Of a stretch of 64,000 nt of DNA, positions 46,185 through 62,000 are shown piece by piece. Source of the DNA: Bacteroidota bacterium (GTDB taxonomy: Bacteria; Bacteroidota; Ignavibacteria; Palsa-1295); the NCBI GenBank assembly GCA_021324685.1, contig JAJPIQ010000009.1, positions 62,001-126,000 of the forward strand, in the 5' to 3' direction. The first letter of the stretch is position 1. Every line of letters starts with the position of its first letter. Position numbers and translations under genes: made by a program. Below the pieces are notes generated by a model. It worked only from the letters and a program-made list of their open reading frames with translations, was not told the origin of the DNA and searched no databases.

Positions 46185-47141
46185 TCAAAGCACCCTAAAA
46201 AATCGCAGGGCGTAAGGAAGCAATCCCAGGACGGCGTACGTCGAAAAGATCCAAACCCCCGAAAGCGACTCGAAGCGCTGAGCGATTTTCGGTTCCAAAG
46301 TCCGGGTAAATGTAATTCCGCGTATGAGCGCAAGACCGAACGGGATGGCAAGGAGTGCGAAAGCTTCCCATGGGAACCCAATAGCGCTCGCCGCGAGGAC
46401 CGCAAGAACATAGCTTCCCATCATTAGTATAAGCCAGGTTATCGTCGCACGTCTCGATCCCCAAAGCGCGGAATACGTTTCTACGCCTTCCTCTTCCGTT
46501 TGTGGAGATCGCGTTTTGCGGCCGATTTCGAGGACCATTCCATTCAGGTAGGAGACCGCAAGAAAGATGAGGAGACCGTGCGATGCGCTTGCTCGTTCGT
46601 TCAACCAGTCGAGGCCGGTCGTATAAAGATCGGCGACCGGCATAATCATCATGTGCGAGAGCATATAGGCGATCGGGTGGCGGCGGAGCCATGCTCGAAC
46701 GAAAAATTCTTTCGACATCAGCGCGAAGTACACGAGTGCGGCTCCGAGCGCCGGGAGCAGGCGCGGAAGCAGGAACGCATTGAGCGCCAGAATGACGAGC
46801 ACGAGTATCGCCGCGATCCAGCCGAGTTCCTTGAGTGTTACAAGCCCACGGGGCACGGCACGGTACGGCCGATAGCGGGCATCGTCCTCGGCATCTTTGA
46901 ACTCATCGGCGATGCGGAGTAAGAGAAAGAATGTAACGACCGTCACGACGCCGACCGCAAAGCTTCCGAGAGGAATGAATCCAGGCGCCTGGCGTAACGA
47001 GCGCGAAAAAGAGACCGAAGCAAAAGCGAAGATCGCCAGCAGTGGAGCGTTCTGGACGAACGGGAATCGTTCCGATTGGTAGATCGTGAGTCGGCGCCAC
47101 AGCGGTCGTTGGTTCTCTGCCGGGATCGCGTCGCTACGCAT
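46185..47141 (-). CDS. UbiA-superfamily prenyltransferase (last gene of the seven-gene operon)
   Basis: The 318-aa integral membrane enzyme would attach a polyprenyl chain to an acceptor. The first Asp-rich motif is RIADEFKDAEDDARYRPYRAVPRGLV. The second is degenerate, EIGRKTRSPQTEEEGVETYSALWG, as in a subgroup of UbiA proteins of unknown acceptor. About eight helices are predicted by eye (ALGAALVYFALM, LLIFLAVSYLNGMVL, WLILMMGSYVLAVLAASAIGF). The start at 47141 overlaps the stop of the HMG-CoA-reductase-like gene by 8 bases (ATGCGTAG), which fixes it. The acceptor could be the product of the upstream enzymes rather than a quinone, since no quinone genes are near. Confidence 0.85.
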   Translation of the reverse strand: MRSDAIPAENQRPLWRRLTIYQSERFPFVQNAPLLAIFAFASVSFSRSLRQAPGFIPLGSFAVGVVTVVTFFLLLRIADEFKDAEDDARYRPYRAVPRGLVTLKELGWIAAILVLVILALNAFLLPRLLPALGAALVYFALMSKEFFVRAWLRRHPIAYMLSHMMIMPVADLYTTGLDWLNERASASHGLLIFLAVSYLNGMVLEIGRKTRSPQTEEEGVETYSALWGSRRATITWLILMMGSYVLAVLAASAIGFPWEAFALLAIPFGLALIRGITFTRTLEPKIAQRFESLSGVWIFSTYAVLGLLPYALRFFRVL

Positions 47142-48447
47142 GGGCCGGGATCGCTTCGGGATTCGGGGACCGGCGACGCCCGAAGATGGAATGCGCCTTG
47201 CTGAATTCGTCACTTGCAATGGCCGCAACAATCGAGATTTCGCCACCCAGGAGCGCGGCCGCGACAATCTCGGCGAATTTCCGAGCCGTTCCAGGACCGG
47301 CGCAGTGCATGATCTCGAGACATTCACGCTGCGTGGGGAGGCCCGTGCCTCCACCGATCGTGCCCACAATCAGGTTAGGGAGTGTCGCGCTCGCATATAA
47401 CTCTCCCGATGGGGTAACATCGAATCGTGTCGTTCCGACGCACGCTTCGGCAACGCACGCGATGTCCTGCCCGCAGGCTGCAAAAATCGCAGCGATCCCG
47501 TTGGCATAGTGCCCGTTGACGCCGATGGCACCACTTTGCAAGCTATTCACGATCGAGGTCTTCCAATAGGCCATGATGTCTTCGGGCGTTGTATGGAGAT
47601 CCGAAGCGACCAGCGCTCGAGGAATGATCACTTCTGTCGTAACTTTTTTTCCACGCACGGACGAGAAAGACTGTGCGGTGGCTTTTTTGTCTCCGGAAAG
47701 GTTTCCCTCGACGTACCATTTGACGGGTTGGATCGGCGTGTGCTCGATGAAGTAATGGCAAATCGCTTCTGTGCAGATCGTCGACATGTTCTGACCGGAA
47801 GCATCGCCGGTCGAAAAGTCGAAGAGGAATGTTATTTGGTTTCCATCGATATTCGGACGCATTTCTTCGAGCGCGCCATGGGACGTATGCTCGCGGACGA
47901 CCTGTTTGAGCGTTTCAAACTGCTTGAGAGCCCAAATGAGAAAAGCTCCTGTTTCCGCGAACGTACGAAACCGAAAGGTCGGGGTCCGCTGGACCATTTC
48001 GAGCAGGCAGACACTGGTCGCGCCGCCGGCTTTTGACATCACCGTCGCGCCACGATGGTACGAGGCAACGAGGGCGCCTTCCGTCGTCGCCAGCGGCACG
48101 AGGAAGTCGCCTTTGGCTGCTGTACCATTGACGCGCAGAGGACCAATGATCCCCGTCGGGATCTGGGTCATTCCTATAAAGTTCTCGATGTTCCCTTTGA
48201 GCGATTCCGGCTGGAAGCCTTCGGGGATGGGCATGAGCGATTTCGGCGATACGCCGGAAAGCCGTTCGATATACGCTGCGCGTTCCAATCGCGAGGCTTC
48301 GCCCCAGCTTCGAATTGCCGGTATCGGATCGGGAAGCGGTGTGGTATCCGTCGAGACTGGCGAGATTCGCTCGACAAGCGATTCGAGGCTCGCCTCCTGA
48401 AGAAGCTTTTCAATGCTTTGTACAGCGGCGGTCCGGGCAATACTCAT
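47134..48447 (-). CDS. HMG-CoA-reductase-family enzyme, class I-like active site
   Basis: The 437-aa soluble protein has the HMG-CoA reductase core: ENFIGMTQIPTGIIGPLRVNG, then PLATTEGALVASYHRG with catalytic Glu123, GDASGQNM in the NADPH site, SGDKKAT with Lys254, ACGQD with Asp328, and EFSKAHSIFGR with His419. All four catalytic residues of class I enzymes are present. The normal reaction reduces HMG-CoA to mevalonate, consuming two NADPH. No other mevalonate gene is here, and the operon context suggests it may reduce a different acyl-CoA, or feed dedicated isoprenoid supply. It overlaps the upstream ligase gene by 4 bases and UbiA by 8. Confidence 0.9.
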   Translation of the reverse strand: MSIARTAAVQSIEKLLQEASLESLVERISPVSTDTTPLPDPIPAIRSWGEASRLERAAYIERLSGVSPKSLMPIPEGFQPESLKGNIENFIGMTQIPTGIIGPLRVNGTAAKGDFLVPLATTEGALVASYHRGATVMSKAGGATSVCLLEMVQRTPTFRFRTFAETGAFLIWALKQFETLKQVVREHTSHGALEEMRPNIDGNQITFLFDFSTGDASGQNMSTICTEAICHYFIEHTPIQPVKWYVEGNLSGDKKATAQSFSSVRGKKVTTEVIIPRALVASDLHTTPEDIMAYWKTSIVNSLQSGAIGVNGHYANGIAAIFAACGQDIACVAEACVGTTRFDVTPSGELYASATLPNLIVGTIGGGTGLPTQRECLEIMHCAGPGTARKFAEIVAAALLGGEISIVAAIASDEFSKAHSIFGRRRSPNPEAIPAHA

Positions 48448-49934
48448 GGAGACTTCAATAACATGGTTCGGAGTAACGCATAATCGATCTTCGCGCCATG
48501 CCGGGGGTCGAGTGGGATCGTTTTCACAAGGCGCACTTCCTCACAAAAGGGAAGCAGGCTTTGAACGGCGCGGGTGTCTTCTTCGTGCCATGGACCGACC
48601 GGTTGAATAGCCGCAATGATCGCGTGGCCTGTTTGCATGATCGTTCCCACTTTTACGGACGGGATCGAGAGCAATTGCTGTTCGGCCGGCGCTACGTAAT
48701 GCCAGGACGTCCCATCATAAATCCGTTCTGCGGCACGGCCGACCAAACGCAGATCCCCGGTGCGATCGAAATATCCTGCATCGCCCGTACGGTGCCATAT
48801 TCCCTGGGGCGTCACGATCTTGTTTCTCCGAAATGCGGCATTGCCGCGGAAATAGGTCGTGAGAACATGCGGGCCTCGGACACAGATTTCTCCAATCGTT
48901 CCATCCGGAAGTGTAAGAGATTCGAATTCCGTTCCATCGATCGGACGCTCGAGGATCTCGATCATGCGCAGTTCAACTTCGTGAACCGGGGTGCCGGCGA
49001 GCAAGCCATGGGTGTTGCGGTCCTGCCGGAGCCGATCGGCATCGACCACGGCGATCGGTTCCGCTTCGGTGCTTCCGTACACGGCGAGAATGTTGGCCGA
49101 TGGGAACGAAGCAGCGATTCGATCGAGCGTTCCCGGAAAAATGGCTGCGCCGCCGACATGGATTCGATTCAATGTTATTTTGCTCGCATAGGGCTCGAGT
49201 TCTCGGAAAAAGGCTGGCGAGGCCGTGCAACTGGTCACACCGTATTTAACGGCCATTTCAGCAATGGCCTGAAAATCGGTATGCGCAAATCCACGACGAT
49301 CGAGCGTGGGGATGATGGTCGTGTTCCCGAGCGCTAGTTGATGAATGGCAAAGATCGGCAGCACCGTGAGCGCCACATCGCGATCGTCCACCGGTAGTGT
49401 TTTAGCAAGGACCTGGTGTTGGCGAAGCAGAAACTCGTGGTTTCGCAGTGCAGCCTTGGGCTCACCGGTACTGCCGGTTGTAAACGTAATAAGAGCCGGA
49501 TGGTCGGTGGGAACCTCTGCGCGAGTGAGTTTGATGTGCCGCAATGGTTTCGGCACGAACAGTTTTATCGGAATTCGACGTATCACCGGGGAGAAAAGTC
49601 GCAGGAGATGGGCTTTTGGAATTCCGATCATCGCCCGGGCATCGGCAAGATTTGCAGATTGGACGATTCGTTTCGTGCCCGCCCACGCATCGATAAATAC
49701 CGCGATGGCTCCGATATAAAGCAGAGCACTCATCACACGATAAAGGTCTCGCGACATGGGAACAAACACGAGCACTCGGTCGCCTTTGCGAATCCCAGAA
49801 CGATCGAGGCGCGCCGCCGTCTCGACCACCTCTCTCGCAAAATCGCTGAATGTTACGCTCCCGTGCGCGTCCGCAATTGCGATGCGATCTCCAAATCGTT
49901 CTGCGTTCTTAAGAAGAAGATCGGTTACGTTCAC
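48444..49934 (-). CDS. OleC-like acyl-adenylate-forming ligase
   Basis: This 496-aa member of the ANL superfamily has the P-loop FTTGSTGEPK at 151-160, the A5 motif YGSTEAEP, and GDAGYFDRTGDLRLVGR. The VLPIFAIHQLALGNTTIIP region and the C-terminal DPRHGAKIDYALLR resemble OleC, the beta-lactone synthetase of long-chain olefin synthesis, more than ordinary acyl-CoA ligases. OleA, OleB and OleD are absent. It probably activates a fatty or hydroxy acid, but whether it makes an acyl-CoA, an ester or a beta-lactone is open. It overlaps the GNAT gene by 4 bases (ATGA). Confidence 0.83.
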   Translation of the reverse strand: MNVTDLLLKNAERFGDRIAIADAHGSVTFSDFAREVVETAARLDRSGIRKGDRVLVFVPMSRDLYRVMSALLYIGAIAVFIDAWAGTKRIVQSANLADARAMIGIPKAHLLRLFSPVIRRIPIKLFVPKPLRHIKLTRAEVPTDHPALITFTTGSTGEPKAALRNHEFLLRQHQVLAKTLPVDDRDVALTVLPIFAIHQLALGNTTIIPTLDRRGFAHTDFQAIAEMAVKYGVTSCTASPAFFRELEPYASKITLNRIHVGGAAIFPGTLDRIAASFPSANILAVYGSTEAEPIAVVDADRLRQDRNTHGLLAGTPVHEVELRMIEILERPIDGTEFESLTLPDGTIGEICVRGPHVLTTYFRGNAAFRRNKIVTPQGIWHRTGDAGYFDRTGDLRLVGRAAERIYDGTSWHYVAPAEQQLLSIPSVKVGTIMQTGHAIIAAIQPVGPWHEEDTRAVQSLLPFCEEVRLVKTIPLDPRHGAKIDYALLRTMLLKSP

Positions 49935-50845
49935 AATGAGCGTCGGTAAAGGTGATACTGGCGAACGATATGGCCGCCGATTCGAGGTAGTGCAGAGGCA
50001 TTATTTTCACGATACAGTGCAAGGATCGCGGAGTCATAACCTTTTTCAAGTGCCGCCGAAGCAGCGCCGGAGACTAACGCTCTAAAAATGCGCTGGCCGC
50101 GATATTCCGGGAGGACACACGTGGTCTTAAAAATAACGGTTTTGTGTGCTCGGTCCATTCCGTTAGGAACCGAAAATAGAAAACCCGCGGGAATACCATC
50201 TACTTCTGCAAACAGAACAAGCTCGGGATCGAGCACACGATCGATACCCATATATAGACCGCGGAAGTCCTGCAACGATATATCAGAGTAGTAAGGATTT
50301 CCGGCAAATCCGAGCACCGACATTCTATAGATGTTCTCTATTTCTTCATTGAACAGCGTACGGTCGAGTGTTCGGAGTGAAATTGGCGGCGTATTCGATA
50401 CAAGCGACGTGAGAGGGACAAGGCGGGAATAATATCGTTCCACCGATTCGAATCCGGCATTCTCGAATTGCGTAGGATACCAGGGCTTGTTCTGGATATC
50501 CATAAAAAATTGCGGAAGGCCATTGCCGAATCTATAAGCATGCCATGTGGTGCCGTTTATTGGACCCAGAACATCCGTGCAGCCTCGATCTTTTAGATTT
50601 TGCAGTGCTCGCGCGAGAAGAATTCGAGAAGCATCCGGATCGTCCGTACACTCATACCATCCGATCAAACCTTCCTTAAAAGCCGGATTGATAAGCGTCG
50701 CGGCCCGGCCGATCGTTGTTCCATTTTGCGAAAGTAAATGCAGCGCTGGAGCATGCCGGGGATCGGGCCAGGAGCTCGCCGGTGCTACAGCGTGCCAGCG
50801 TTCGTCGCGCGCATCAGAAAGCTCGAAAGTCTCGACGTTATACAT
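49931..50845 (-). CDS. GNAT-fold N-acyltransferase-like protein
   Basis: The 304-aa protein has a C-terminal GNAT acetyltransferase core: LVLFAEVDGIPAGFLFSVPN, then the acyl-CoA-binding loop VLPEYRGQRIFRALVSGAASAALEKG, and YDSAILALYRENNASAL. The N-terminal half (WHAVAPASSWPDPRHAP, GWYECTDDPDASRILLARAL, GPINGTTWHAYRF) is typical of the large two-lobed GNAT proteins found in secondary-metabolite clusters. It could acylate an amine. The ATG at 50845 is preferred to TTG at 50872 because it overlaps the upstream gene's stop by 8 bases (ATGTATAA). It is co-translated with both neighbours. Confidence 0.82.
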   Translation of the reverse strand: MYNVETFELSDARDERWHAVAPASSWPDPRHAPALHLLSQNGTTIGRAATLINPAFKEGLIGWYECTDDPDASRILLARALQNLKDRGCTDVLGPINGTTWHAYRFGNGLPQFFMDIQNKPWYPTQFENAGFESVERYYSRLVPLTSLVSNTPPISLRTLDRTLFNEEIENIYRMSVLGFAGNPYYSDISLQDFRGLYMGIDRVLDPELVLFAEVDGIPAGFLFSVPNGMDRAHKTVIFKTTCVLPEYRGQRIFRALVSGAASAALEKGYDSAILALYRENNASALPRIGGHIVRQYHLYRRSL

Positions 50846-51722
50846 GCTTACCGGAAAATTCGAGGCGCACAATCCGCGTCACGGATGGCAAGGAGGATAT
50901 CGCGGCGAGCGCGATGAGCGCAAAGAGAATTGGATTTGCGTGTGCTGAAATGGCAATTGCAAGGAGCATTATGACGGCAAAAACCCTGATATCGAGTTTA
51001 CGCCAACTCGCAATAAACGTTAAAAGGATCGAGAGAGCAGCAAGGAGACCGTGCAGCGTAATGGAAGCGTTCGTTTGGGGCGTCGCGAGTCCGATGCCCA
51101 GAGCGACCGTCGATACCGGAAGTAACAAATTATCGAGTCCATTCACACTTACCGCTTCGATGAGCATGAGAAACGATGCAAGCAGGAAAATTTCGGAGTA
51201 TCCAAGGGGGACGTGCATCCCAAGGCATACGGCGATTGTCACTGCGGCGATAACCATAGAGCCCGGAAAACTTTTTCGTTCGGCGGCCACGCGATAGTGG
51301 GAGGTTCCGAATCGCTGGCCAAGGATGGCCGCGAGCGAATCGCCATAAGCAAGTACACAAATGGCCGGAACATACGTCCATCGAACACCGGTCCACGCGA
51401 CGTAGCAGAACGTCGCATAGATTCCGATCGGCAAAAACAGTTCTCCCAGGGAAGCGCGGCCAACCTGTTGCAGGGATCGAAGGGGAGCGAATAGCTTTGC
51501 CATCAACAAAGCAGTGGTGAAGACCACGCCCAGCACGAGCACCGACCAATGCGTCGTATAAATCCCGAAGAACGGAAGTGCAATACTTGCCGAAAGTATA
51601 TGAATCAGCTTACGTGTGGTCTCGATGCGGGCTCCTCGGCGGGAAACAAATTCAGCGAGCACGATCACACCGACGAGCGCGATCGTTGCCAGAGCAACAT
51701 TTTGCCAATCGCGAGGAGTCAT
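50838..51722 (-). CDS. Phytol/dolichol-kinase-like membrane protein (VTE5/SEC59 superfamily)
   Basis: The 294-aa inner-membrane protein has about eight hydrophobic helices. RKLIHILSASIALPFFGI near residue 37 and YGDSLAAILGQRFGTSHYRVAAERKSFPGSMVIAAVT near residue 125 are the two hallmarks of the CTP-dependent polyprenol/phytol kinase and phosphatidate cytidylyltransferase group. It would phosphorylate a lipid alcohol or activate a phospholipid. In plants VTE5 and VTE6 kinases regenerate phytyl diphosphate for a UbiA-type prenyltransferase, and a UbiA gene is in this operon. The start overlaps the preceding gene's stop by 4 bases. Confidence 0.83.
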   Translation of the reverse strand: MTPRDWQNVALATIALVGVIVLAEFVSRRGARIETTRKLIHILSASIALPFFGIYTTHWSVLVLGVVFTTALLMAKLFAPLRSLQQVGRASLGELFLPIGIYATFCYVAWTGVRWTYVPAICVLAYGDSLAAILGQRFGTSHYRVAAERKSFPGSMVIAAVTIAVCLGMHVPLGYSEIFLLASFLMLIEAVSVNGLDNLLLPVSTVALGIGLATPQTNASITLHGLLAALSILLTFIASWRKLDIRVFAVIMLLAIAISAHANPILFALIALAAISSLPSVTRIVRLEFSGKHV

Positions 51723-52825
51723 GATGTCCGGCGGTCGAGATGAAACGATGTGTAAAAAAATGCAAAATCTCGTTTATGGAGCATTGCCGAGCGTTCCACA
51801 TCTCGAACTATCTCGCTGGATGCAACAGAGGCCAGACTCCGTGGGACAAGCAAGTTCCAGTAGGCGAAGCGGGCGCTGGGTTTCGATCCCTTTACGAGTT
51901 GTTCGGCGCACGATTGAAAAACCTGGGGACTCATGTACTCGAAAATATCCGAAAGATTGAACGCATCGAACGGCCCATGCAATCGAAGGGCGTCATCCGT
52001 TGTGCCGCGAACGATCGTAAGACGATCCAGCCGCTTGCGAATTCGCGAGAGAACCTGCGGCTGAAGATAATGTGGTAAGCAATCCGTGAAGTTCCCGGTC
52101 AGAATATACCGTAAGTATGGATTTGCACGGGGGTCAAGTTCCGTGAGTGCATATTTCCCGCGTTCCAAAAGGAATGTTCCGACATCGGTCTTGACATACC
52201 GGAAGAATTCCGGGTCGCGGCCGGCGCGACCCATCACCCGCCGTCCAAAGAACAGACGAAAGATCAGGCGCCATCTGCGGTTATCCCAAACACGGGCATA
52301 AAATGCGCGCCGGTCTTCGATCGTTTTTTGCGAAAGCAGGGATTCGATCGCGTTCCTGGAGTGCATCAGAGGCAGTATGCTGCGGCGAAAAAGATTAAAG
52401 TATGATTCAAACTTACCGGTGTGAATTACACCGCGTGCAATGGCCTCGCCATGTCGGTCCCAATAGGCGCGGGCGTCCTGACTTAGCCTGCCCCGTAGGT
52501 TTCGATAGGTTTTTGCGCGAGCTGTCGATGGTCCGATACCAAGAAACGCGAGCAGTTCCGAATCATCCAGCATACCGATCGCTGCGGCTCGAAGTTCGAC
52601 AAGCGCGAGTTGGACCGAACTCACATCCACCGCAACGACCTCTTCCACATCCGACGCGAGCAGCGAGAATGAATTATCGCCCGCAGACGCAATGGAAAGG
52701 CACCGGTCGCCAGATTTCAGTTCCAAAGCGTCGGCGAGCACCGTCGCATCTTCCCAGCAGTTCGCGTAGCGAATAAGATCGAAGGATGCCCGACGTTCGA
52801 TCGAACCGGCGTCGAAAGGTCTCAT
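51719..52825 (-). CDS. BtaA-like (DUF3419) S-adenosylmethionine 3-amino-3-carboxypropyl transferase
   Basis: The 368-aa protein shows the family start YANCWEDATVLADALELKSGDRCLSIASAGDNSFSLLASDVEEVVAVD, which is the SAM-binding Rossmann turn of DUF3419/BtaA. AFNLSDIFEYMSPQVF further down is another family hallmark. BtaA moves the 3-amino-3-carboxypropyl group of SAM onto diacylglycerol, making diacylglyceryl-homoserine, the precursor of betaine lipids. BtaB, the N-methyltransferase that completes DGTS, is absent. The lipid acceptor here may not be diacylglycerol. Both ends overlap their neighbours by 4 bases (ATGA). Confidence 0.88.
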   Translation of the reverse strand: MRPFDAGSIERRASFDLIRYANCWEDATVLADALELKSGDRCLSIASAGDNSFSLLASDVEEVVAVDVSSVQLALVELRAAAIGMLDDSELLAFLGIGPSTARAKTYRNLRGRLSQDARAYWDRHGEAIARGVIHTGKFESYFNLFRRSILPLMHSRNAIESLLSQKTIEDRRAFYARVWDNRRWRLIFRLFFGRRVMGRAGRDPEFFRYVKTDVGTFLLERGKYALTELDPRANPYLRYILTGNFTDCLPHYLQPQVLSRIRKRLDRLTIVRGTTDDALRLHGPFDAFNLSDIFEYMSPQVFQSCAEQLVKGSKPSARFAYWNLLVPRSLASVASSEIVRDVERSAMLHKRDFAFFYTSFHLDRRTS

Positions 52826-55407
52826 GAGTCCTCACATTTACGTACGGTGCCCGCGCGGCCATCGATTTCGATCGGCTCGCCATCGTGCAACAGGTTCATC
52901 AATCCTGGAATGCCGACCACACATGGTATTCCGAGTTCCCGCGCGACGATGGCTGAATGCGATAACAGGCTGCCGCGTTCGACGGCAATTCCACGGACAA
53001 GCGAGAACAGGGGAGCCCATCCGGGATCGGTGCGCTCCGCGATCATAATCGTTCCTCGAAGATCGCCGGGCGATTTTGGATTACGAACGAGTCGCGCAAT
53101 TCCGCGCACGGACCCCGCCGAACAACCCAGCCCGGCAAGGATATCGCCGGCTGGTTCGGTCGTAGCCATCGATTTAAATTCATTCCCGAATGAAGCGATT
53201 CCATACGTTTCGAACCGGTCGGGGACGTGTTCCAGCGCGTACAGGGCGAACGCTGATTTCCGACTGTTCACGAGAGATCGAAGATCGATGGTTACCGCCG
53301 TTCCCTCGATAAACGAAAAAACTTCTTCTTTGGTAAGAAAAAAGATATCGCGCGCTTCGTCTAAGATTCCTTCCCGAGCGAATTCGAGACCAATGGAAAG
53401 AAAAATGTTACGCACGACGGCAAAGGCTCGCGTTCGTTCGAACCGCAGATTTTCCCGGCCTTTCACGCGCTCCCGTGCGACGCGAAGCACATATCGATAG
53501 AGACGGCGACGAAAAAAGGAGCGCTTGAGCGCTGCGCGCATTTTTGCTTCCGCCGTTACGCGAATATCGGATTTGTTAGATCGTGGTTGTTCCCGCAGTG
53601 TGCCTTGAATGATCTCGCCAAGCAGGGCCGGTTCTTCCGAGGGGGTAATGGTTTCGAGCTTCAATTCCTCCATCCAGCGGTTCCCAAATCGCTGAAGATA
53701 CATTGTGAGCAGTGGCAGGACCGTTTCCTCTTGATGAAGACGGGCGACGATCTCGCTCGGAGCAAGTGTATCGAGCTCGTCGGCCAGCCCATCGACCCGT
53801 CGGATGGCCTCCGCAAGCCCCGCCATTCGCTTGCCCGGTTCGGCAGAAATAAGACCGCCTTCGCCCGAAAGTAGATCGTTCTCGAGGCCCGGCTCACTCG
53901 AAATCCACTTCTTCGTCAGCGCTTTGAGCAGGCCGTAAAAGATCATGACGAAGAAATCGTTGACGATCGGCGTCGTCCAGTTCCGAAGCAAGCCGTGCTC
54001 GAGTGCGCGGTAATGTCCCGCCAGTTCGTGCGACGAGTCCGCCGTCATATCGCGTGATTCGTATGGCGCCAGCATCGCATCGAGCTGTGTGTGGAACCGT
54101 TCCAAATCGCGTGCAATCCCGCGATAGCGGCGTAGAAGATCGAAAATGAGCCTCGGCATTCTTGCCAGCGAACGCGCCCGACTTTTTGGCGGCGCAGGGG
54201 TCGCAAGGCGTTCTTTGACGCCCATCATTTGCTCCATGAAGCCAGCGTTTACATTGTAAAACGGCAACATTGCAACGACGCCATGCCAACTTAAAAGATT
54301 ATAGTAGATTCGGCCCTTAAAGTAGCCCAGCATTCGAAACGTCTCGGGTTGGTTTGCGATATCGCGTTCGTGGACTCCCATAACACGCACGAATTGCCGG
54401 TACACTTCACTATAGACATCCCTGACGAAGGAGAACGTAAGCGGAAGCGTGATGCCTGGAAAACTTTCGGTAATATTCGAGTTGTCGAAGACCGTGCGGG
54501 TCTGCGTCATGTCCGGTAAATGTTCCAGGCCGGTGATCGGTCGTGCCTGGAGCAAATAGCATTGACCGGTTGCATCGATGGCCCATTCGATATCCTGAGG
54601 CGATCCGATCGTTCGCGAAATTGCGCGTGTTGCCGAAGAAATAGAAATGACCTGGGCATCGCTCAGCGACGAGGTATTCCGTAGTTCGGTACGAACATTT
54701 TCGGTCCTGGTACCGCCGTTCGGTGCCGCGCGTATCGCATAAACTTTCTCCACAATACGCGCCTCGATAATCCCGGAGACCTCCGTATACGTATCGGCAT
54801 CGAGTTCGCCACTCACTAACCCTTCGCCGAGACCGTATACCGACGAAATCGTTACCGCTTTTCGGTTCCCGTTCACCGGATCGATCGCGAAACTCACCCC
54901 GGCAATTTCAGCGTCGATCATGCACTGAACGATGACGGCAACGGCATCCGGTTCAGCGCGATGACGGCGAGCATATTCCAATGCCCGATCGGAAAATCCA
55001 GAAATCCATACTTCGCGGATCGCTTCCCAGAGGAGATCGCGAGTGACGAAGAGCCTCGACTCGAGTTGTCCGGCAAAGGAAGCGTGTGCGCCGTCCTCGC
55101 TCACGGCCGAAGAGCGGACCGCGACACTGTTCGTTTCTAATCGTTCGAACTCCCGTTCGACTTCTTCTCGAAGAGCACCGGGGATCGAAATCGAACGTAT
55201 GATGGATGCACATTCGCTCGGCGATTTTCCGACAAGCTTGTCCGTCATGACCGTTCGAAAGGCATCTGTCGTAATCGCGAACCAGGGCGGCACCCTCCAG
55301 TCCGTCTTCGAAGAAACAAGGCATTCCAGTCGTGCGAGGCCAACGCCCTTGCCGCCGATTTGCGAACTCGACGGGATGTTCTGGTGATTAGGACGAAAAA
55401 GGAACAT
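52822..55407 (-). CDS. PEP-synthase-related dikinase with rifampicin-phosphotransferase layout
   Basis: The 861-aa protein begins with the ATP-grasp domain of PEP synthase: GGKGVGLARLE, AVRSSAVSEDGAHASFAGQLES, VIVQCMIDAEIAGVSFAIDPVNGN and GLGEGLVSGELDADTY. A central helical, probably substrate-binding region (about 290-770) starts FDNSNITESFPGITLPLTFSF. The C-terminal swivelling domain carries the phosphohistidine, His817, in GSLLSHSAIVARELGIPCVVG. The PEP/pyruvate barrel of true PEP synthase is missing, so it should move a phosphate from ATP via His to another small molecule, leaving AMP and phosphate, as rifampicin phosphotransferase does. It is the first gene of the operon. Confidence 0.85.
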   Translation of the reverse strand: MFLFRPNHQNIPSSSQIGGKGVGLARLECLVSSKTDWRVPPWFAITTDAFRTVMTDKLVGKSPSECASIIRSISIPGALREEVEREFERLETNSVAVRSSAVSEDGAHASFAGQLESRLFVTRDLLWEAIREVWISGFSDRALEYARRHRAEPDAVAVIVQCMIDAEIAGVSFAIDPVNGNRKAVTISSVYGLGEGLVSGELDADTYTEVSGIIEARIVEKVYAIRAAPNGGTRTENVRTELRNTSSLSDAQVISISSATRAISRTIGSPQDIEWAIDATGQCYLLQARPITGLEHLPDMTQTRTVFDNSNITESFPGITLPLTFSFVRDVYSEVYRQFVRVMGVHERDIANQPETFRMLGYFKGRIYYNLLSWHGVVAMLPFYNVNAGFMEQMMGVKERLATPAPPKSRARSLARMPRLIFDLLRRYRGIARDLERFHTQLDAMLAPYESRDMTADSSHELAGHYRALEHGLLRNWTTPIVNDFFVMIFYGLLKALTKKWISSEPGLENDLLSGEGGLISAEPGKRMAGLAEAIRRVDGLADELDTLAPSEIVARLHQEETVLPLLTMYLQRFGNRWMEELKLETITPSEEPALLGEIIQGTLREQPRSNKSDIRVTAEAKMRAALKRSFFRRRLYRYVLRVARERVKGRENLRFERTRAFAVVRNIFLSIGLEFAREGILDEARDIFFLTKEEVFSFIEGTAVTIDLRSLVNSRKSAFALYALEHVPDRFETYGIASFGNEFKSMATTEPAGDILAGLGCSAGSVRGIARLVRNPKSPGDLRGTIMIAERTDPGWAPLFSLVRGIAVERGSLLSHSAIVARELGIPCVVGIPGLMNLLHDGEPIEIDGRAGTVRKCEDS

Positions 55408-55496: not shown

Positions 55497-58400
55497 TTAT
55501 ACGGCACCCACAGGATGAAATATTTTTTGGAACTGCGCTCGAATGGGTTCCGGCAGGTTTTCTTCCGACCCTGCCGCCTGCACTAATTCCTCCGCGATCG
55601 GAACAGCGCTTTCAGGTTTCGATTCCTCCAACAACACCTCTATCAGTTCGGACGCAACCGTAAGCGTATCGTTATGAGTGAGGCCGCGGACTTTCTTTCG
55701 CACTGCGAAGGCATGCAATAAAAGTGTTTCCGCTTCGGCCAGCCTGCCAACGGTGTGAAGAAGGATACTATATTGGAATTCGGCGCGAGAGGTATCTTCA
55801 TGTTCCGGCCCGATCGTCGCGCGGCGGATCGAAAGTGCCGATCGGTAGGCTTGCTCGGCCTCGTCATATTTCTCCTCCCGGCGCAAGGTATTAGCGAGAT
55901 TGTTGTACATGGTCGCCGTCACAGGGTGGTTCTCACCGAGCGATCGGCGTATGATATCAAGGGCCCTCCGGTTGAGCGGCTCTGCTCGATCGTAAGCTTG
56001 CTGCCAGTAGAGGGAACTTGCGTAGGTATTGAGACTTTCCGCCGTCATCGGGTGCTCGGGGCCGCACGCGACCTCGATAATGGAAAGACTTTGTTGCAAC
56101 AGCGGATCGGCCTGTTGCCACCGCTGGTTTTGTGAATGCAGGGCGGCGTAATTCTGGAGGAGGATCGCGAGATCGGGATGACGGGGGCCCAGTCGCTGCT
56201 CGATAATATGGACGGCACGCGCAAACAGCGTTTCCGCTTCGGAATAGTTTTCGCCGTACAACGAAGTTCCCGACTGTGAAGTCGGAGAAATGTGTAGCCG
56301 GATGAAATTTGCCAATTCGTTGAGATAATAACCGGCTTCCAGGCTGTCGGGCCCCAGCGATGCCTCGATACTGGCCAGCACTTTACGGTGCAGTGTTTCG
56401 GCTTCGGCATAATTACCCTGCATGCTCAGGATATCGGCCAGCCAGCGCATTTCATTCTGTGTCGAAGAATGATTTTTACCGAAATGCCGCGATGCGGCTT
56501 CGAGGTTCGTTCGTGAAATGCGTTCTGCCTCCACGTATTTGGCCCGTTCTTTCAGTAACCGAGCATATTCGTTCCTAACGTTGATGTGTGAGAGGCTTGT
56601 GATGAGCGCGGGGTCGTTCGCCCGGGCATTCTCATCGTCTAACAGGATAAGAGCTTTCTTGAGCGTTACTTCGGCATTGACGAGATCGCTCCGGTCCAAA
56701 TACGCTTTCCCGAGTTCCAGGCAAATTTCAATTTCGTGTTTACGCAGTTCGGGGGTTTGCTCTTGCAAATGTTCACAAAGCTCGAGCGCTCGCCTGCCGT
56801 TCGCTACGGCGCCCTCATGCCAGCCTGCATTGCGAAAGAAAAGGGAAAGCCGATATCGCAGCTCGCGTTCGAGGGTGCTCTCATAAAATTCCTTGCTTTG
56901 GTTGGCAATGGCCTCTTCGTATTTGCGCACAACGTCCAATGTCCATCCCGTTGCCGTACCAGCGGACGATTTATTATGGTCACGGGCATTTTGCTCTGCT
57001 TGCTGTTCGAGCGCCAGCCAGTATCCAAGCAGTTCGTAGGAGTGGGAACCTTCGGCAAGATACGGTAAGAGCTTCAGATCGAGGAGGGAGTTCTCTAATT
57101 CCGGCCAGCGCGAAGCTTCCTTCCACAGCCAGGGAAGCGAGATGGCCTTCATCGCAGTGGGTTCGGAACGTTCGAAGTAGTCAGCAAGGGAGGTCCAGGC
57201 AGAATGTTTTGCCTCCGGCGACGTAAGGTATCGGTGTTCAACACCGATCCGCAGATGGTCATGGAAAAAGCTCAGGCGGCCATGGAGGCGAACCAAATGA
57301 TAATCGAACGCGTGTAAAAGTTGGGAGAGCGATGCGCGATCCAGTTCGGTCGATCCCAAGATCTCGGATTCGGAAAGGCCATGCGGCGAGGCCCAGATCC
57401 TGGATAAGAACGTTCGCACATGGTCTTCCCCGTAATCGCCTTCCAACCGCACCAAAATCCGGCTGAAGAGTTCCGGGATGTCTTTCGACGAAAGGTATTG
57501 TCCAATGAGGTCATCGAGGTCTTCATGTTTCCCCTGGAGCCGCAGTTCTTCGAGCAGGGTGCGCAGGAAAAGTGGGTTCGACGTTTTGTCGTCGAGCACG
57601 ATCCGTTGTTCCTGCGTTCGGTCCAGCTTCTTTTGATAGCTCGCGAGAAATGTTCGAAGGACCTCTTCGCGCTCCCGGACGGAGATCGGATTTACAGGAA
57701 GTTCCCGCCAGGGCGTGCCTCCCGTTCGACTTCGAGCCCGAAGCCGTTCGAGCGCGTCACCCGGCGTGGAAGAAATAACCCATTTAAGGTTCTGGGACGT
57801 ATATTCCGGAAGCCAGCGCAAAAAGCGGCCTTCGGTGTTAAATTGATTGATCGCATCGATGACGATGACGATCGTCTCTTCCGAGACCCGCGCGAGCCAC
57901 GAGGGGAATGCCTGGGTGAGCTCGGTCGAAGATTTTGGGACCGGCTCTTCGGAGTGAGTGCGTTCACGAATTTCTTCGATCACTCGACGCATGAGCGTGT
58001 CCGGATCGGTACTCGTCGGTGTTACACCGACGAAGTGCTCGATGACGAATGGCTCGCGAGCGCCGGTAGCGTGGGATCGTCTTCGAAGAGAATCAGCCCA
58101 ATAGGCGAGGAGTGAACTTTTGCCCGCCCCGGAATTTCCGGTCAATACTAAAATCGGTTCCGGACGTTCCAGGTGCTCGTCCAGCGTTTGGAGCAATGCC
58201 AGATTCGGCACGTAACCTTTTTTGCGCGATTGCGCGAAGGCGGCATGCCCGGCGCGCTCCTCATCGATCCACGACGTGCTGCCGGTCTTTGGCCAGAATT
58301 GTTCGATGAGGCGCGATAGATCGCGCTCCAGCATCATTCCGAGCTCGTGGGCAGATTCGTAGGTCGGGACGGTCCCGACCAGGGCCGATACCTTTGCCTT

Positions 58401-58865
58401 GAGTTCCGTAACACGCGGGTCTGTTGTTTCGCGCGGAGTTCGAAAATAAATGAGCGGTGGTACACTGCCGAGACCTTCGTTCAGGAATCCGTATAAGAAT
58501 TCCATTTCGGTAGCACTCTTGCCCGACGCGAGCGCGTCCGCGATCCACGGGTACGCATCGGCGAGTTCCGGATTTTTGCGTAGTTCATCGGGAGGGGGAA
58601 CCCAACCATAGCGATCGCCAAGCATGCCGACGAAAAACGGACGGCATTTGTCAATTTCCTCAAAACAGGTCCCTAAAATACGACCTTGTTCGGCATCCTC
58701 ATCGGTCAGTCCCCAGCGCAGATCGATTTCCGTAAATTCGATACCGCGCTCACGGCATTGGGCACGCAGTTTAGGAAATATTTTCTTGGCCAGATAATCG
58801 CGCTCGCCAAGAAAATCCACAAAGGTGGACGACAGGAACAAGCGAAGTTCATTCGAGGACGCCAT
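55497..58865 (-). CDS. DUF4062-NTPase-TPR protein (NPHP3-like, STAND class)
   Basis: The 1122-aa cytoplasmic protein has three parts. Residues 1-100 are a DUF4062 domain (LRLFLSSTFVDFLGERDYL, then FTEIDLRWGLTDEDAEQGRIL, CRPFFVGMLGDRYGWVP), a TIR-like fold. Residues about 215-600 are a NACHT-type STAND NTPase with P-loop GNSGAGKS (243-250), Walker B IVIVIDAIN (332-340) and a following WVISSTPGDAL. From about 650 to 1100 there are about ten 42-residue TPRs of kinesin-light-chain type (EAETLHRKVLASIEASLGPDS and similar). The same order occurs in eukaryotic nephrocystin-3. It may sense a signal through the TPRs and act through the N-terminal domain. An antiphage role is possible but unproved. Confidence 0.88.
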   Translation of the reverse strand: MASSNELRLFLSSTFVDFLGERDYLAKKIFPKLRAQCRERGIEFTEIDLRWGLTDEDAEQGRILGTCFEEIDKCRPFFVGMLGDRYGWVPPPDELRKNPELADAYPWIADALASGKSATEMEFLYGFLNEGLGSVPPLIYFRTPRETTDPRVTELKAKVSALVGTVPTYESAHELGMMLERDLSRLIEQFWPKTGSTSWIDEERAGHAAFAQSRKKGYVPNLALLQTLDEHLERPEPILVLTGNSGAGKSSLLAYWADSLRRRSHATGAREPFVIEHFVGVTPTSTDPDTLMRRVIEEIRERTHSEEPVPKSSTELTQAFPSWLARVSEETIVIVIDAINQFNTEGRFLRWLPEYTSQNLKWVISSTPGDALERLRARSRTGGTPWRELPVNPISVREREEVLRTFLASYQKKLDRTQEQRIVLDDKTSNPLFLRTLLEELRLQGKHEDLDDLIGQYLSSKDIPELFSRILVRLEGDYGEDHVRTFLSRIWASPHGLSESEILGSTELDRASLSQLLHAFDYHLVRLHGRLSFFHDHLRIGVEHRYLTSPEAKHSAWTSLADYFERSEPTAMKAISLPWLWKEASRWPELENSLLDLKLLPYLAEGSHSYELLGYWLALEQQAEQNARDHNKSSAGTATGWTLDVVRKYEEAIANQSKEFYESTLERELRYRLSLFFRNAGWHEGAVANGRRALELCEHLQEQTPELRKHEIEICLELGKAYLDRSDLVNAEVTLKKALILLDDENARANDPALITSLSHINVRNEYARLLKERAKYVEAERISRTNLEAASRHFGKNHSSTQNEMRWLADILSMQGNYAEAETLHRKVLASIEASLGPDSLEAGYYLNELANFIRLHISPTSQSGTSLYGENYSEAETLFARAVHIIEQRLGPRHPDLAILLQNYAALHSQNQRWQQADPLLQQSLSIIEVACGPEHPMTAESLNTYASSLYWQQAYDRAEPLNRRALDIIRRSLGENHPVTATMYNNLANTLRREEKYDEAEQAYRSALSIRRATIGPEHEDTSRAEFQYSILLHTVGRLAEAETLLLHAFAVRKKVRGLTHNDTLTVASELIEVLLEESKPESAVPIAEELVQAAGSEENLPEPIRAQFQKIFHPVGAV

Positions 58866-59051: not shown

Positions 59052-62000
59052 TTAGTGACACTCTCCTATAACGATCCACAAATCCTCCGAAGAGGAAAAT
59101 ACCATCGTGTAGCCGCTTGGAGCGCTCGTTGAACCCGGCGAGAGCGTCAACGATGAATTCGCGTAGCCACCCTGGACGATATAGTAACCATTACCGTCCA
59201 GCGTCATCGATCCGCTGCTACTGACATAGCGCACGGTCACGATACGGCCATTTGTAGGCGAGGCCGGCATCTTTACCGTGCTGGTATTATCTTCTAAAAC
59301 GATGTAATCGTTGTTCTGAACGGTATAATTCTGGTCCACATCGACGATACTGCCGTTTGTCATGGCAGAAACGAACGTGTTACCATTATTATCGATGCGA
59401 GTATTACCGTTGGTTTGGAGCGAACCGCCCGTCGTATTAATATTACCAGTGGCAACCACTTTTCCACTTGCGCTTATGGCATTACCGCTTCCGCTGGCAC
59501 TGGCGTGAATTGCATCGCCATTCACGGACGAAACATTCAGTCCGACTCCATTGCCGCTATTGACATTGGCATCAATCGCATCGCCGGAGTTTGCATTTGC
59601 GGAGATCACACCTCCGGTCCCTGTATTGGTAGCAAAAATGGCGAAGCCGTCGCCGGAATTGCCGGCTGCAAACGCATTGCCGCTTCCGGAAGCACCGGCT
59701 TGTAAGCCTGTCCCACTCGCACCCGTATTTTCGACGTCGAAAACGATACCGTTCGTGGTGGAAGTCGCGTTGCCGGTCCCATTCAATTGCAGGTCATTCG
59801 CTATAACGCTAGTGAAGGTACCGGTATTCGGAGTCGTGCTGCCGATCGTCCCCGGCGCTTCCCAGGTATGGCCCTCCAATTCGTTGGCATTCGAGACGGT
59901 CGCATTATCGACGTAATGCTTTGTCGCGGCGTCCTGCGCGTTGGCCGGGTCAGTGACGTTATTAATCGGGTGCGAAAGCATGTCAAGACCACCGTTTGCT
60001 TGCAAGATTCCCCAGAATTTGGCGAAGTTGCCATTGATCTGAGCCATGAGCGCGCCCGACGAGAAGAACTTGAAGCCGGCATAAGCCGAAAGCCATGCTG
60101 TCGGCGAGGAATTCCAGCTATCGTTATAGAAACCCATACTGTAATGGCCAATGGTCTTCCCGTCGTAAGTGAACTGATCGGTATTGTTTGCCGATCCAAT
60201 ACTCTGATTGAAGGGCATCGAAATATTTCCGCTCGATGCGTCCAACGAGCCTCCCGTGACCAAACCGCTCGCGGTTACGGTACTTAACGAGGCGCCTCCC
60301 GAGATATTAATATTCCAGGCGCTTCCGACGATCTGTGTCGTGCCCGTAGGATTTCCAATGGACGTATTTCCGGTTCCACCGCCCAGGTTCGTCGGCTGAT
60401 TGCTCGATTGATTGATATTGACGGCGCCACTGGCGGTCAGCGTGGTGAAGGTCGCACTATTCGCCGTTGTGGAACCGATTGTTCCTGGAGCTTCCCATGT
60501 GTGACCTTCTAACTCGCTTGCGTTGGCGACCGTGGCATTGTCCACATAATGCTTTGTCGCGGCGTCCTGCGCGTTCGTCGGATTGGCGACGTTATTGATG
60601 GCGTGGTTCGCCATGCTCACGGCCGCATTCACGGTGGTCGGGCTATTCAGTGAGATCGAGCCGTTGGAACCCGTTCCGTTGCTCGATCCACCGGCAAGCA
60701 CCACATTGCCGCCGTTACCATTGTAGGTCTGGCCGCCATTCAGATAAATGTTTCCGCCGTTACCGCTGCCGCCAAAATTGTTTACCTGGCCGCCGGTCAG
60801 CGTCAGGTCGCCGCCATTGCCCATATTCGAATTGCCGCTCGAAATGTTGACGGCTCCGCCCGTTCCCGGGCCGCCAAAACCACTCGAGGTTCCGGCATAA
60901 ATATTCACCGATCCGGGAGGTCCGCCGCCAAGGATATCGCCCGTATAGATATACATTGAACCGCTGGGAAGATGACCCGATGGGCCGGTCCGAATGGTGA
61001 GGGAACCCGTGGGCCCGACCGACGGACCGCCATCTTGCGTATGGATGGTGAGCGGTGAGCCTAATGTCGTTTGAGTAATATTGGCTCCCTGATACCCGAG
61101 CGTCGTTCCATTATCGCTGAGCGAAGAATTCCCGACGGCATTCGCTCCAGTGAATTTTGCCATCGTGTTCGTCGTCCCGTTGACGGCGGTCGACGTCGTG
61201 GCGTCCACGTAATGTTTGGTCGCGGCATCCTGCGCATTGGTCGGGTCGGGAACATTGAAAATGCTGTTGTTCCGGACATCGATATTGCTACCGAAGTTTA
61301 CCGTTCCGCTGACAGCGCTTATGGTTGATGTGGAATTTAACGACACATACCCGAGATTGCTCAGATTGTGGTTGTTGAAATCGGTATTCCCGTCGATCGC
61401 GATCGTACCGCCGCCGCCATTATTAATGTGGCTGACGTTTGTCAGCGTGTGCCCGGTCATATCGACATCGCCATGGAGCGTTGTGCTGCCGCCAATCGCG
61501 ACCGAGCCATTGGTCGCGAGATTGCCCGTGGACTCATTGACGCTGAAATTGGTCCCGTAACTTAAAGTGGTGCCATCGTCCGTAAGCGCAGAGTTCCCGA
61601 CCGCATTCGAAGCGGTGAACTTTGCGATCGTATTCGTCGCTCCATTAACGGCAGTATTGACCGCATTCGTCGAAGTGATATCGACATAATGTTTCGTCGC
61701 TGCATCCTGCGCATTGGTCGGATCGGTGACGTTGTTGATCGGATGAGCGTTCATGTTGAGTGCCCCGGTCAGCGATGCACCGGCTGCGCTGATCGAACCG
61801 GAAGTATTGACATTCGTCACGCTTCCATTGCCGAGTTGCATGGTGTTGCTGGCGCTCACTACGGCATTCGCACCGATCGCGGTTGCATTCGTGAGGTTGG
61901 CGGAAGCGACATCGGCCTGATATCCAATGACCGTGTTATTATTGCCCGTGGTGTTCGTCTGGCCCGCGTTATAACCGATGAAGTTGTTACCGCCGCCGGT

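Follow-up and report, generated by a model that had tools for sequence, protein, structure and literature searches.

What do seven genes that overlap at every junction make together? The question is raised by positions 46185-55407 of a 64,000-nucleotide stretch of DNA from a Bacteroidota bacterium of the class Ignavibacteria (the window; positions 62001-126000 of contig JAJPIQ010000009.1 in the 3.47-Mb assembly GCA_021324685.1). Seven minus-strand genes here are predicted to encode a PEP-synthase/rifampin-phosphotransferase-like dikinase, a BtaA-like enzyme, a VTE5-like membrane kinase, a GNAT acyltransferase, an OleC-like ligase, a homologue of 3-hydroxy-3-methylglutaryl (HMG)-CoA reductase (HMGR) and a UbiA-superfamily transferase (Table 1). 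The sequence-only reading of this DNA had taken them for the operon of an undescribed lipid pathway, and the letters bear out the layout it described: each gene overlaps the next by 4 or 8 bp. We find that the seven genes are one conserved, co-inherited module, which very probably serves a single lipid pathway with a BtaA-type aminocarboxypropyl step. For its product we propose a membrane lipid with a reduced homoserine unit, built by a dedicated pathway in a homoserinol-phosphate order of chemistry; judged from the sequences, this proposal has a probability of about 0.37.

To look for the same gene families elsewhere, as the sequence-only reading had suggested, we used an alignment of BtaA-like proteins to scan the species genomes of GTDB. 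Among the 80 loci recovered, many of them on short contigs, genes were present for the VTE5-like kinase (66), the dikinase (63), the ligase (56), HMGR (53), the GNAT (52) and UbiA (52). Clustering of every sizeable open reading frame (ORF) in the 68 stretches longer than 9 kb, window included, placed each of the seven families in 46-68 stretches, and the next commonest neighbour family in 9; it revealed no carrier protein, transporter or regulator common to operons of this kind (type A). Besides the window, 35 loci carry all seven genes on one strand. The order HMGR-UbiA-dikinase-BtaA-VTE5-GNAT-ligase prevails (23/35), and together with a GNAT-first order (3/35) and the dikinase-first order of the window (1/35 in addition) represents rotations of one circular order; the remainder follow an order typical of the Planctomycetota-Verrucomicrobiota-Chlamydiota group, HMGR-BtaA-VTE5-GNAT-ligase-UbiA-dikinase (7/35), or another order (1/35). 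The three rotations (seen in the window, L007, L058, L088, L098, L149 and others) look as if they had arisen via a circle or a tandem duplication.

The operon is spread over more than 12 bacterial phyla, including Bacteroidota, Planctomycetota, Acidobacteriota, Gemmatimonadota, Deinococcota and Pseudomonadota, and is found in isolates such as five Sphingobacterium species, Dyadobacter psychrotolerans and Pontiellaceae B1224. Six of the seven genes are present in Lentisphaerae WC36. The set also lies on a Roseinatronobacter plasmid, where the start of the record truncates HMGR. The closest operon relative (locus L087 in genome G052) belongs to the same class and was deposited as a Chlorobiota metagenome-assembled genome (MAG). 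Pairwise distances among the seven families correlate in all 21 pairs (r 0.63-0.92), shared organism history contributing in part. Of 391 genomes of the class, 9 have the UbiA subfamily, 18 have BtaA and 7 have both (hypergeometric P 4e-9); the two UbiA loci without BtaA lie on short contigs, in operons of the same kinds. Together with the correlated distances, the recurrence of the same seven families in distant phyla strongly supports one pathway, as had been proposed. Within the genus of the window, five of seven genomes lack a BtaA-like gene, and another carries a sister type of operon (see below); because most near relatives lack the operon, horizontal transfer is suggested. A search of phage records gave no useful result. 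The NCBI labels of the operon genes are piecemeal: UbiA-family, PEP/pyruvate-binding, DUF3419, hypothetical, hypothetical and AMP-binding.

All seven proteins score below the thresholds of the curated NCBIfam models; catalytic residues are intact wherever they could be checked. The dikinase has the ATP-grasp, middle and C-terminal phosphohistidine domains in the order of Rph, as in rifampin phosphotransferase and PEP synthase, with H817 conserved in 90% or more of the 54 relatives, but it stays below the curated scores (best 712.6 of 883 bits; Rph 302/999; PEP_synth 228/740). Its relatives with solved structures include 5fbs/5hv1, which we take to be of the rifampin-phosphotransferase type. 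The BtaA-like gene is single-copy in its genome; the AlphaFold model of its product (pLDDT 93) matched generic SAM methyltransferases weakly and nothing else in a fold search, and a PDB sequence search gave no useful match. The membrane kinase has no match in Pfam or the PDB, and its comparison with the CdsA profile gave a probability of 1.4%. It carries the motifs RKxxH, D..AA..G, K(S/T)..G and DN..P, with RK..H, R, G, D128, G135, K150, E189 and DN invariant in 26 relatives, and from these motifs, set against what is known of the family, we presume it to be VTE5-like. The GNAT model (pLDDT 86) matched tandem GNATs in Foldseek: MAB_4324, glucosamine N-acetyltransferase and mycothiol synthase. 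The ligase, with K482 conserved in its relatives, scored 330 of 478 bits against PRK09274 and 187 of 900 against OleC; unlike in olefin synthesis by OleABCD, genes for OleA, OleB and OleD are not among the recurrent neighbours. Finally, UbiA shares the first Asp-rich motif of UbiA prenyltransferases (RxxDExKDxxxD), and R76, D79, K82, D83, D87, H163, R208, K209 and Y223 are kept in 54/54 relatives. In contrast to those enzymes it lacks the second motif DxxxD and has ExxRK in its place (Glu in 53/54).

Is the HMGR homologue an enzyme of mevalonate synthesis? It resembles the mevalonate enzyme in being a full-length class-I protein with all catalytic residues (E123, K254, D328 and H419 in 51/51 relatives), and scores 295 of 441.8 bits against TIGR00533. 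It is the one HMGR of its genome, in which IspG is present and HMG-CoA synthase absent. In a set of 20 carriers, IspG exceeded its cut-off in 17 and HMG-CoA synthase in 1, Pontiellaceae B1224, which has a second HMGR. We therefore rejected the mevalonate pathway as the role of this gene: with HMG-CoA synthase nearly absent and the methylerythritol phosphate (MEP) pathway present in carriers, the operon homologue is, judging from gene content, not for mevalonate. A variant of the idea, in which a true HMG-CoA reductase turns HMG-CoA from leucine breakdown into mevalonate that would be incorporated into the product after activation or phosphorylation, would fit the invariance of the catalytic residues and of most HMG contacts. 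It would also fit the occurrence of the subfamily outside the operon, in a Vibrio orphan and, close to an isopentenyl-isomerase-like gene, in one more genome of the phylum. We nevertheless consider it improbable, given the same distribution of HMG-CoA synthase and the MEP pathway, and because the kinase found fused to HMGR (see below) is from a family other than mevalonate kinase.

Twenty-three alignment columns distinguish type A HMGRs from flavobacterial-type HMGRs. As a signature of the pathway they had to be rejected: orphan Vibrio HMGRs share most of them, and they therefore mark a subfamily. A clade test was uninformative, its midpoint root lying within the set. Orphan homologues with most of the signature residues, and the other six genes not nearby, are located at L167 (a Vibrio fluvialis plasmid), L168 and L147. 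On an Alteromonas macleodii plasmid (L169, 1409-8170), genes for an AMP-binding ligase and a thermostable-hemolysin-family protein lie within a few genes of an HMGR homologue.

Natural variants of the operon bear on what HMGR may reduce instead. Two genomes that are 97% identical, one of them a Thermincola MAG, encode a fusion of HMGR with an EcKL/APH-type kinase, which keeps the catalytic motifs HNDFNTRN and DWE; the fusion adjoins BtaA. A formyltransferase gene lies near, a ligase gene is present in one of the two genomes, and both genomes lack a UbiA of the operon type. The fusion implies that the alcohol made by HMGR is probably the substrate of the kinase. Since both genomes run BtaA, HMGR and a kinase without UbiA, their gene content indicates that these enzymes can work without it and that the core does not require a prenyl tail.

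Two sister types of operon have BtaA and a GNAT. Type B encodes a thioester-reductase-like short-chain dehydrogenase/reductase (SDR), a YegS lipid kinase, UbiA, the dikinase, a GNAT, a phosphatidylserine-decarboxylase homologue, BtaA and sometimes an FtsX/ABC exporter. Type C combines a YegS kinase, a PEMT-type methyltransferase (fused to BtaA at some loci, often so in the class of the window), BtaA, a GNAT, a pyridoxal phosphate (PLP) decarboxylase of the ornithine/diaminopimelate type, an aldolase-II-like protein and FtsX/ABC; loci of this type in the class are L009, L010, L027, L028 and L030-L034. A lipid kinase thus recurs across the sister operons. The type-B-like locus L163 has neither BtaA nor the phosphatidylserine-decarboxylase homologue, which suggests that these two work as a pair. 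Because the sister operons pair BtaA and a GNAT with decarboxylases, the ligase and HMGR may plausibly act on the homoserine carboxyl. Taken together, the variants suggest that this carboxyl would be reduced in type A and removed in types B and C, and that a phosphate would be added. A related order of steps is known from microcin C, where MccD and MccE carry out aminocarboxypropyl transfer and then decarboxylation, MccD not being homologous to BtaA (PMC10491745). Type C follows the same logic with its PLP decarboxylase, but microcin C chemistry acts on a nucleotide-peptide, and type A would reduce the carboxyl rather than remove it. A different DUF3419 operon on the Rhizobium plasmid pMK-2 (L166, 1-5975) encodes a ketoacyl-ACP synthase III, an oxidoreductase, an MBL-fold protein, a CoF-synthetase-like ligase, DUF3419 and a hypothetical protein.

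Membership of the BtaA family, whose enzymes are expected to move the aminocarboxypropyl group of SAM to a lipid hydroxyl, and the PEMT-type methyltransferase of type C, sometimes BtaA-fused, would also suit ordinary betaine-lipid synthesis, with BtaA making diacylglyceryl homoserine (DGHS) or its trimethyl form (DGTS) and six loosely related accessory genes. We hold this to be very improbable. In contrast to BtaA/BtaB systems, the operon has no BtaB-type N-methyltransferase among its seven genes or their recurrent neighbours, on which ground plain DGTS synthesis was rejected, and it adds six genes, including carboxyl-activating and carboxyl-reducing enzymes, that are co-conserved at similar frequency and whose distances correlate, unlike loose accessories.

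Transfer, to which the patchy distribution and the plasmid copy point, and the FtsX/ABC exporter pair adjoining types B and C would be at home in the synthesis of a secreted specialised metabolite, such as a siderophore, signal or antibiotic. However, the seven proteins include two membrane enzymes of lipid type, some operons also contain CDP-lipid genes (those of Sphingobacterium and Fluviicola have CdsA and a CDP-alcohol phosphotransferase inserted), and type A shows no shared carrier protein, transporter or regulator; a membrane lipid fits these better, and a secreted product seems improbable.

We therefore favour a pathway to a membrane lipid with a reduced homoserine unit, in which the substrates, the order of steps, the product and its location are read from the enzyme families. 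The UbiA-type transferase and the dikinase would make or activate a lipid tail, perhaps a prenyl ether, and the BtaA-like enzyme would attach the aminocarboxypropyl group from SAM to a free hydroxyl of a lipid. The GNAT may then acylate the amine, the OleC-like ligase convert the carboxyl to an acyl-AMP or acyl-CoA, and the HMGR homologue reduce it with four electrons to a primary alcohol (homoserinol). Phosphorylation of this alcohol by the VTE5-like kinase would yield a lipid resembling phosphatidate or ceramide phosphate, to which CdsA and the CDP-alcohol phosphotransferase could attach a polar head in some Bacteroidota. The sequence-only reading had not placed the ligase and HMGR on the homoserine carboxyl, or the kinase on the resulting alcohol, as we prefer to do. 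Its homoserine-type element draws its support from BtaA family membership and the decarboxylases of the sister operons. Its prenyl tail is possible, the UbiA profile being nearest to digeranylgeranylglyceryl phosphate (DGGGP) synthase among solved structures (6m31, E 1.6e-6), but loses its place in the core with the two UbiA-free genomes.

Several observations weigh against the proposed chemistry. The HMG-binding residues of the operon HMGR are largely kept, which leaves HMG-CoA a possible substrate. Ser684 of the HMG pocket is replaced by E or D in 51/51 type A HMGRs, but Glu also occurs in flavobacterial-type HMGRs outside the operon, and we rejected the change as a sign of a new substrate. 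Two carriers, Phormidium tenue and Lentisphaerae WC36, lack any HMGR, and the VTE5 assignment was made from motifs alone. Moreover, type B has the thioester-reductase-like SDR in addition to its decarboxylase, so a fatty acid may be the substrate of this reductase and, by analogy, of HMGR too.

The last point leads to the main rival, in which the tail comes first. Here, the ligase and HMGR would produce a long-chain alcohol from a fatty or isoprenoid acid. The VTE5-like kinase and the dikinase would convert this alcohol to the mono- and then the diphosphate, and UbiA would transfer it as an ether onto an acceptor bearing the GNAT-acylated homoserine from BtaA, with the homoserine carboxyl untouched by ligase or HMGR. 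Such a route would suit the presence in type B of a gene of the fatty-acyl/thioester reductase family (NAD_binding_4) where type A has ligase and HMGR, the ligase-UbiA fusion ORF at L051, and the similarity of UbiA to an ether-forming enzyme; isoprenols are, furthermore, the substrates of VTE5-type kinases. The two Thermincola-type genomes, which keep BtaA and the HMGR-kinase without UbiA, are better explained by a head-group role, and we know of no precedent for UbiA chemistry on a saturated alkyl diphosphate. We rate the tail-first order as unlikely.

Two further known routes resemble the operon in part. The archaeal ether-lipid pathway (DGGGP synthase, CDP-archaeol) shares the UbiA resemblance but differs in the second Asp motif and in the presence here of BtaA, HMGR, ligase and GNAT; geranylgeranylglyceryl phosphate synthase was not among the recurrent operon neighbours, the part of the genomes that this search covered. 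Phytol salvage likewise joins a VTE5 kinase with a UbiA prenyltransferase, but has no counterpart of BtaA, GNAT, HMGR, ligase or Rph-like dikinase.

The open-access literature (subscription papers not covered) held no description of the gene combination, of homoserinol lipids or of DUF3419 clusters, in keeping with the earlier judgement that the pathway is undescribed. BtaA lipids are already known, and the proposed pathway has one gene in common with them. If the proposal holds, a membrane-lipid pathway common to cultured Bacteroidota, cyanobacteria, planctomycetes and many uncultured phyla has been overlooked, and HMG-CoA reductase in MEP-pathway organisms, a gene otherwise misread as evidence of mevalonate metabolism, is explained. 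A bolder extension, doubtful at present, is a widespread, horizontally moving class of phospholipids in which N-acyl-homoserinol phosphate would replace or extend the glycerol-phosphate end. With a backbone from SAM, a re-used HMGR and a CTP-type kinase, such lipids would resemble sphingolipids by an unrelated route.

Table 1. Genes of the operon, from the dikinase end to the UbiA end, and nearby features of the window.
Feature	Position	Strand	Size and basis	Overlap with gene in next line
PEP-synthase/rifampin-phosphotransferase-like dikinase	52822..55407	-	861 aa; PF01326 E 1.5e-62, PF00391 E 2.4e-22	4 bp, ATGA
BtaA-like (DUF3419) S-adenosylmethionine (SAM)-dependent 3-amino-3-carboxypropyltransferase	51719..52825	-	368 aa; PF11899 E 7.2e-65, nearly full length	4 bp, ATGA
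VTE5/dolichol-kinase-like membrane kinase (probably CTP-dependent)	50838..51722	-	294 aa; motifs	8 bp, ATGTATAA
Tandem GNAT N-acyltransferase	49931..50845	-	304 aa; PF00583 E 6.7e-7	4 bp, GTGA
OleC/FadD-like AMP-forming acid ligase	48444..49934	-	496 aa, GTG start; PF00501 E 3.9e-46	4 bp, ATGA
Class-I HMG-CoA-reductase homologue	47134..48447	-	437 aa; PF00368 E 2.4e-106	8 bp, ATGCGTAG
UbiA-superfamily transferase	46185..47141	-	318 aa; PF01040 37.4 bits vs cut-off 34.2	
DUF4062-STAND-TPR gene	55497-58865	-		
Repetitive, adhesin-like protein	59052-63983		1643 aa	

The starts of UbiA and the GNAT were taken as ATG 47141 and ATG 50845 rather than the ORF-list starts 47369 and 50872. NTGA at the upstream stop is also found at 171/325 same-strand junctions of the relatives, and promoter- or terminator-like sites within the operon did not exceed their frequency in shuffled sequences. 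The operon is followed at its 3' side by a convergent universal-stress gene. At its 5' side, 89 bp away and in the same direction, lies the DUF4062-STAND-TPR gene, whose product has a weak match in PADLOC (mad8, E 8.5e-5). The repetitive protein further along the window consists of near-identical NATVGGTLAVAGAT-type repeats.

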